The notes beneath the pieces were generated by a model. The model ran no database searches, was not told where the DNA came from, and saw only the letters and a list, made by a program, of their open reading frames with translations. From Arcobacter sp. EP1 (GTDB taxonomy: Bacteria > Campylobacterota > Campylobacteria > Campylobacterales > Arcobacteraceae), in NCBI GenBank assembly GCA_001655195.1, contig LPNY01000042.1, forward strand, positions 195,331-259,330: a DNA stretch of 64,000 bases, read 5' to 3'. Made by a program: the position numbers and the translations under genes. This document shows, piece after piece, positions 54,018 through 55,140 of the stretch (position 1 is the first letter of the stretch; each line of letters begins with the position of its first letter).

Positions 54018-54050
54018 AAAAAAAAAGAGGCTTCGCGGACCTCTTTTTTT
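54018..54050 (-). terminator. Strong bidirectional terminator hairpin
   Basis: The GAGG core with long A/T arms closes on a CTTCGCGGA loop. T runs on both strands let it act in either direction. It ends the candidate RNA on the minus strand. Confidence 0.85.
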
Positions 54051-54186: not shown

Positions 54187-55140
54187 TTAAAAACTATGCA
54201 AATAAGAGAGTAGGAACATATCAATGCCATCATTAGGTTTTTTGATTGAGGCGTTTGAATAGTGATAATATCCCAAATCAAAAGAGTGCTCTTTTGTTTT
54301 GACCCCTAAGCCAAATCTATCTTCAAATTGAAAAGAGGTCGAAAATTTCTTTTTCTTTGTTGAGGTTTTAGAAAAAAATGATGTTCCAATCCCTCCATAG
54401 ACAAAGGGTGTGACCTTTGTATTGGTTTTAAAGTAGTAGGCAAAAACTGGAGAAATATTAAGGGAATACAAGGATGAATCAACATCAAATTTATTGACTG
54501 ATACGTCGTAAAATCCACTAACATATCCTGTATTACTCTCAAAATATCTTTTTTCAAATTTTCGCTGAATACCCAAACGGTATGTTGCGTTGTTTTGTTT
54601 GTCTTGACCATACCCAAAAGAGAAAGAGTGAATAATTTTTGGTGCTTTTTTTGTAGTAACTTGTTGTTGGGTTGTTTTAGATTTTGTTTTGGGAATAACA
54701 ACCTCTTTAACTACGGGTTGTTTTATTTTTTCTATTTTAGGTTCTATTATTTGTTCTTTTATTGATACAAGTATATTACTACTGTAAATAATATCAGAAT
54801 GTTTTTGTGTTAAATCAATACGGGCTTCATAAGCAAAGGGGTGAAACTTTTTGAGTCTTTGAGGCAGGCTTGATAGTTCACTCTTTAGGGTTTCTTTTTG
54901 ATTAAAGCTTTTATAGGTAACAACATAAAATCCACGATGTGATTTTAAAATATAAAGGGGCTCTTTTACCTCTTTTAAATGGGTATCAATAAACGCATGG
55001 GCATTTTCTTCATTGGAAAGGGTAGAGAGAACAATTGTTTTACTATTGGGTATTGCTGAAAAAAGATGTAGGCTTAATGCCAAAATAAAAATAAATGGTT
55101 TTAACAATATGTATCTCTTTATAAATAGTTTAATAATCAT
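54187..55140 (-). CDS. SPOR-like domain fused to a PagL-like lipid A deacylase barrel
   Basis: This 317-residue protein has a basic, hydrophobic leader (PFIFILALSLHLFSAI). Residues about 33-105 look like a SPOR fold (KTIVLSTLSNEENAHAFID, then FYVVTYKSFNQKETLKSEL). A Lys/Thr/Gln-rich linker (about 125-175) follows, then a small beta-barrel (about 176-317) whose end YHYSNASIKKPNDGIDMFLL matches PagL, the outer-membrane lipid A 3-O-deacylase. Aligned to PagL's catalytic H-x-S and Glu, the residues are H293, S295 and D307, so Asp replaces Glu. N296 and N303 are kept. The N-terminal peptidoglycan-type module is unusual. A TTAATCAAAA/TTTTGATTAA hairpin follows. Confidence 0.72.
   Translation of the reverse strand: MIIKLFIKRYILLKPFIFILALSLHLFSAIPNSKTIVLSTLSNEENAHAFIDTHLKEVKEPLYILKSHRGFYVVTYKSFNQKETLKSELSSLPQRLKKFHPFAYEARIDLTQKHSDIIYSSNILVSIKEQIIEPKIEKIKQPVVKEVVIPKTKSKTTQQQVTTKKAPKIIHSFSFGYGQDKQNNATYRLGIQRKFEKRYFESNTGYVSGFYDVSVNKFDVDSSLYSLNISPVFAYYFKTNTKVTPFVYGGIGTSFFSKTSTKKKKFSTSFQFEDRFGLGVKTKEHSFDLGYYHYSNASIKKPNDGIDMFLLSYLHSF

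Follow-up and report, generated by a model that had tools for sequence, protein, structure and literature searches.

A SPOR-like module joined to a PagL-type barrel in Arcobacter sp. EP1, a candidate wall-placed lipid A deacylase

The gene, its neighbours and its barrel

The gene described here lies within a 64,000-nucleotide stretch of contig LPNY01000042.1 of Arcobacter sp. EP1, which we refer to as the window. It is a single unbroken frame on the minus strand (Table 1). From N- to C-terminus its product comprises a leader, a SPOR-like module, a linker rich in Lys, Thr and Gln and an eight-stranded PagL barrel. Read by eye, the leader has a basic N-terminus, a hydrophobic core and the residues SA at the likely cleavage point, and an AlphaFold2 model made from a 37-row alignment predicts a helix at residues 13-28 within it. 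In this model pLDDT falls below 50 at residues 91-141, and eight strands are predicted with high confidence at residues 172-316. Downstream on the same strand is a glutathione peroxidase gene, separated from the window gene by a terminator-like hairpin that does not figure in the list of our hairpin scan, since the scan counts loops of 3-8 bases. Upstream, on the opposite strand, is a cytochrome b561 gene. No operon partners were found among these neighbours, and the gene seems to stand alone.

Table 1. Coordinates, in the window, of the gene, its parts and the nearby hairpin
Feature	Position	Strand	Basis
Whole gene: leader, SPOR-like module, linker and PagL barrel, 317 aa	54187..55140	-	ORF, PF09411
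Sec-type leader, residues about 1-30	55051..55140	-	read by eye
SPOR-like module, residues about 32-114	54799..55047	-	profile match; predicted b-a-b-b-a
Lys/Thr/Gln-rich linker, residues about 115-168	54637..54798	-	sequence; model confidence mostly low
PagL barrel, residues 169-317, eight strands, C-terminal Phe	54190..54636	-	HMM, PDB sequence match, model
H293, aligned with the catalytic His of PagL	54262..54264	-	2erv alignment, PagL alignment
S295, aligned with the catalytic Ser of PagL	54256..54258	-	2erv alignment, PagL alignment
D307, at the place of the triad Glu	54220..54222	-	2erv alignment, locus counts
Terminator-like hairpin, loop of about 9 bases	54020..54049	.	read by eye

To which family does the barrel belong? 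The Pfam PagL profile (PF09411) matches it at 90.7 bits (E 1.1e-25, cut-off 23), and a sequence search of the PDB retrieves Pseudomonas aeruginosa PagL, 2erv, at E 1.7e-23, with 34% identity between the two barrels. The stretch HYSNASIKKPNDGID of the window barrel, which contains H293, S295 and D307, aligns with HYSNAGLKQPNDGIE of 2erv. When the predicted model is used as the query, Foldseek returns 2erv at E 3.2e-14, and VIA-align superposes the model on 2erv_B with a Z of 24.1 and an rmsd of 1.1 Å over 145 residues, OprF being the runner-up at Z 16.7. As judged by profile match and predicted model, the barrel is a PagL in both family and fold. It shares with 2erv and the PF09411 family the eight-stranded barrel, the His and Ser of the active site and the Asn residues; it differs from 2erv in the N-terminal SPOR-like module and linker that the window protein adds, and in having Asp for Glu. 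The initial annotation, made from the letters, had described the same succession of leader, SPOR-like region, linker and barrel, and the ORF and domain searches confirm this anatomy. Its assignment of the barrel as PagL-like is likewise borne out, by the Pfam score above cut-off and by the superposition. Strand number, which it had put forward as a check, comes to eight in the model, so that the barrel does not differ from PagL in this respect. Two other sets of matches were considered and set aside: T9SS PorG, the sole NCBIfam match, is sub-threshold (21.6 bits vs 130), and CutA and DsbG-type PDB matches to residues 36-169 (E 0.1-0.2) were rejected as chance.

The SPOR-like module, its relatives and its ligand residues

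SPOR modules usually hold proteins to the cell wall. Scored alone against Pfam SPOR (PF05036), the N-terminal module of the window gene reaches 13.0 bits (E 0.13), below the cut-off of 21. On this HMM check, which the initial annotation had suggested, the module falls short, and we call it SPOR-like without assigning it to SPOR by its own score. The relationship emerges through relatives in other Arcobacteraceae genomes. In genome G091 a 743-aa frame holds three SPOR copies with a joint score of 91.4 bits; in genome G050 the SPOR match of a 385-aa protein reaches 33.6 bits. A profile built from these four modules, three copies of G091 and one of G050 with the window left out, picks the window module from its own genome at 49.2 bits and E 1.5e-12, while the next match there stands at E 0.5. 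For a window-free profile such a value lies far beyond chance. A seven-row profile with the window included matches the SPOR domains of DamX (E 0.0033) and CwlC (E 0.0065) in the PDB and, up to E 1, nothing besides them. At the structural level the signal is fainter. Modelled alone from its single sequence, the module is predicted as b-a-b-b-a with a pLDDT of 55.8, the last strand of the RNP-like b-a-b-b-a-b being absent. The top Foldseek match of this low-confidence model is the DamX SPOR domain, weak at E 0.06, and RlpA SPOR reaches a Z of 4.2, with unrelated rows at a similar Z. Because the model is poor and its structure matches in the PDB are weak, the SPOR claim rests on the sequence profiles. 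By these, the N-terminal module descends from SPOR domains, and the SPOR-like region of the initial annotation stands as a relationship by sequence. The lack of a SPOR fold, which that annotation had named as a refutation, is not what the b-a-b-b-a prediction shows, faint as this structural signal is. Compared with SPOR domains proper (PF05036; DamX 2lfv, RlpA 6i05), the module has in common the predicted b-a-b-b-a order and a descent traced via its relatives; it departs from PF05036 in falling below the Pfam cut-off when taken alone and in having V37 for the conserved Gln.

Where else are such modules found? The seven-row profile matches 58 of the 104 genomes of the family Arcobacteraceae, more distant SPOR domains included. 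According to frames that were read and sampled by Pfam, Arcobacteraceae modules lie N-terminal to YkuD L,D-transpeptidases and polysaccharide deacetylases, and this presence of module relatives on cell-wall enzymes helps the idea of a wall tether. One or two SPOR-like copies precede the YkuD L,D-transpeptidase at five loci (L070, L074, L085, L167 and L168), and a module precedes the polysaccharide deacetylase at three (L066, L068 and L069). Two genomes of another family carry two module copies before an apparent YkuD domain, as read by eye. SPOR domains are also seen C-terminal to the OEP part of outer membrane efflux proteins of the TolC-like kind (L090 and L092).

The modules closest to that of the window by identity are the G091 and G050 copies, at 36%, 35% and 28%, with a G091 copy at the top; the module tree leaves the placement of the window module without resolution. 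In G091 (L093, 660-2888) the three SPOR copies of the 743-aa frame are followed by a C-terminal probable outer-membrane barrel, and partial copies of this frame occur in G095. In G050 (L031, 1474-2628) the SPOR module precedes a probable barrel with a weak Opacity match (15.7 bits vs 21). Both C-terminal probable barrels end in Phe, and neither matches a Pfam family over cut-off. The two proteins resemble the window protein in the order of their parts and in having its closest modules, and differ from it in that their C-terminal part is not PagL.

Could the window module still bind its ligand? In PMC6895207, Q270 of RlpA is described as highly conserved, and R302, R309 and R311 as forming a basic patch. 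The window module has V37 at the place of Q270, hence no ligand Gln, and V73 and T75 at the places of R309 and R311. The position of V37 follows from reading IVLSTLSN against VQIGAFS of the canonical SPOR protein of the same genome and against DamX; the automatic alignment is one column off at the Gln, and the pattern and the DamX alignment were followed instead. In the nearest relatives of the module the Gln is absent too, but the R309 place still holds an Arg. The conserved Gln is missing as well from the aligned module copies of the five YkuD loci listed above. Since V37 replaces the conserved Gln, the window module is no more than a candidate wall binder. The replacement of the Gln and of two arginine places, together with the sub-threshold SPOR score and the fact that stand-alone PagL is the rule among the 125 PagL loci surveyed below, lends itself to a different reading, in which the protein is an ordinary active PagL and its SPOR-like module has ceased to bind denuded glycan and has become a spacer or a protein contact, or has drifted without a specific role. 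We regard this as a serious possibility that nevertheless falls on the doubtful side. It sits uneasily with the closest modules, which retain the Arg at the R309 place and precede other probable barrels. Moreover, PMC6895207 describes SPOR binding as mediated mainly by the main chain, with a basic patch made of different residues in different SPOR domains, and K66, H68 and R69 could form an alternative patch of this kind in the window module.

The third triad position and the origin of the pairing

The third triad residue of P. aeruginosa PagL is a Glu, which we take to be Glu140, and the 2erv alignment puts D307 of the window protein in its place. The residue is thus acidic, as Asp307, although not the Glu of a narrow definition. 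Among 26 Arcobacteraceae PagL loci, the window included, the position is Asp in 20, Asn in five and a shifted Asp in one, in which one inserted residue displaces it; Glu occurs in none. Thirty loci from the phylum, which overlap these 26, give Asp in 20, Asn in six, and one each of shifted, Gly, Ser and unscored. The 30 best-scoring Pseudomonadaceae loci all have Glu. Asp-bearing PagLs were also found in Halopseudomonas and Desulfobacter, in a search whose pattern required Asp; the 39 loci retrieved with the GID pattern are all Asp, and because the pattern demanded it they are no unbiased sample. Given its frequency in the family and its presence in Halopseudomonas and Desulfobacter, Asp is, on these alignments, a stable alternative at the third triad position and a habit of this lineage. 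The altered triad of the initial annotation is therefore right as to the letter, which is Asp and not Glu, but this letter is the common state of the lineage. The changed activity suggested there loses its claim to be something special, given that related PagLs of the phylum that stand alone usually have Asp. For the same reason (20 of 26 family loci and 20 of 30 phylum loci) we rejected the notion that Asp307 marks a loss of function peculiar to this protein. Four PagL relatives of one genus, g2 (L005, L006, L008 and L009), carry Asn at this position; they may have lost activity or rely on a different acid.

The same position bears on a second rival, namely that in vivo the barrel does something other than 3-O-deacylation, acting on another ester lipid substrate or serving as a lipid A sensor by binding only. 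The substitution of Asp for Glu and the Asn found in five of the 26 family relatives speak in its favour, but it is improbable in view of how common Asp is in the family and of its occurrence in the Halopseudomonas and Desulfobacter enzymes. The remainder of the site is also strictly kept, His, Ser and both Asn included: H293, S295, N296, N303 and G305 are unchanged across 17 of 17 aligned PagLs. The His and Ser are named as essential for PagL in PMC4958258, and the fold of the predicted model matches that of PagL at 1.1 Å.

What is unusual about this gene is the pairing of a SPOR-like module with a PagL barrel, seen in the window gene only among 125 PagL loci. In this set (2614 ORFs, searched with two SPOR profiles), which holds some genes twice, L001 and L002 both being the window gene, and leaves out long Pseudomonadaceae frames, one of them of 476 aa, no other PagL locus showed a SPOR module. 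Across the phylum PagL matches occur in 39 of 397 genomes (42 rows), and the longest PagL frame in that search is that of the window, at 325 aa, followed by one of 245 aa. Five other long frames (L099, L108, L138, L154 and L166; 263 to 347 aa) were considered as further fusions and rejected; Pfam finds in them PagL plus weak, sub-cut-off matches to barrels or surface antigens. The sister of the window barrel (L003/L094), 51% identical and joined to it at 100/99 support, has its own leader, different neighbours and no SPOR module. As the sister barrel is without the module and the pairing is limited to the window gene, the fusion probably arose on the window's branch. Occurrence in one genome also means that conservation provides no argument for function. 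That single occurrence might raise the suspicion that the fusion was created in assembly, or is recent and already dead, yet this is very improbable for a single open frame within a contig of 464 kb, with a clean domain boundary, an intact leader and C-terminal Phe, and a GC content that is similarly low in its two halves (0.29 and 0.33, against 0.32 for the window). No paper on a SPOR-PagL protein was found in the literature searched; PMC11768039 was rejected as one, SPOR serving there as an example and the 'PagL' match being an author name.

A proposed model: a PagL placed by the wall

Based on these observations, we propose that the window gene encodes a PagL-type lipid A 3-O-deacylase with an added N-terminal Campylobacterota SPOR-like periplasmic module, and that the wall keeps the enzyme in place or determines where it sits. 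We advance this reading tentatively, rating its chances at slightly under even. After export, the barrel would fold into the outer membrane so as to place its His-Ser-Asp site at the outer leaflet. The linker, long and flexible, would allow the SPOR-like module to contact peptidoglycan. The enzyme might thereby be held to, or concentrated at, particular regions of the wall, most naturally, one would guess, the division site. A tether to the wall or division site had been suggested in the initial annotation and is a reasonable possibility, although one key ligand residue is replaced. Catalysis with Asp, export, topology, wall binding and an effect on local curvature or vesicle release are all points that we infer.

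What are the implications of a wall-held PagL? PagL enzymes are generally regarded as working unrestrained within the outer membrane. If the model is true, wall remodelling would be directly linked to the local trimming of lipid A. Substrate chemistry is a point on the other side: in Campylobacter jejuni the lipid A chains at the 3-position can be amide-linked, and PagL is not expected to cleave these. In Salmonella, vesicle output rises about fourfold with active PagL but not with the inactive form, and deacylated lipid A is present in the vesicles (PMC4958258). In the light of this effect, a PagL stationed at wall sites could shape the membrane there. A more far-reaching version of the model would have the module read septal or altered wall and the barrel trim lipid A at that place, so that membrane shape or vesicle release becomes coupled to wall remodelling; in Arcobacteraceae, SPOR-like modules would moreover serve several outer-membrane barrels as N-terminal wall anchors that can be exchanged. 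We offer this joint version as speculation and think it unlikely as a whole.

A wall-binding module on an outer-membrane barrel has a parallel in OmpM of Veillonella, whose wall-binding stalk and barrel tether the membrane (PMC10628300). The comparison is one of how the proteins work only; OmpM has an SLH stalk, not SPOR, and is a trimeric porin, not an eight-stranded enzyme. As the modules closest to that of the window precede other probable barrels, they suggest a way of attaching the outer membrane that relies on SPOR and parallels those of OmpA and OmpM. Would the wall of the host offer a suitable ligand? Denuded glycan is made by enzymes of the Amidase_3 kind. An Amidase_3 gene is present in the host genome, so that denuded glycan can be made.
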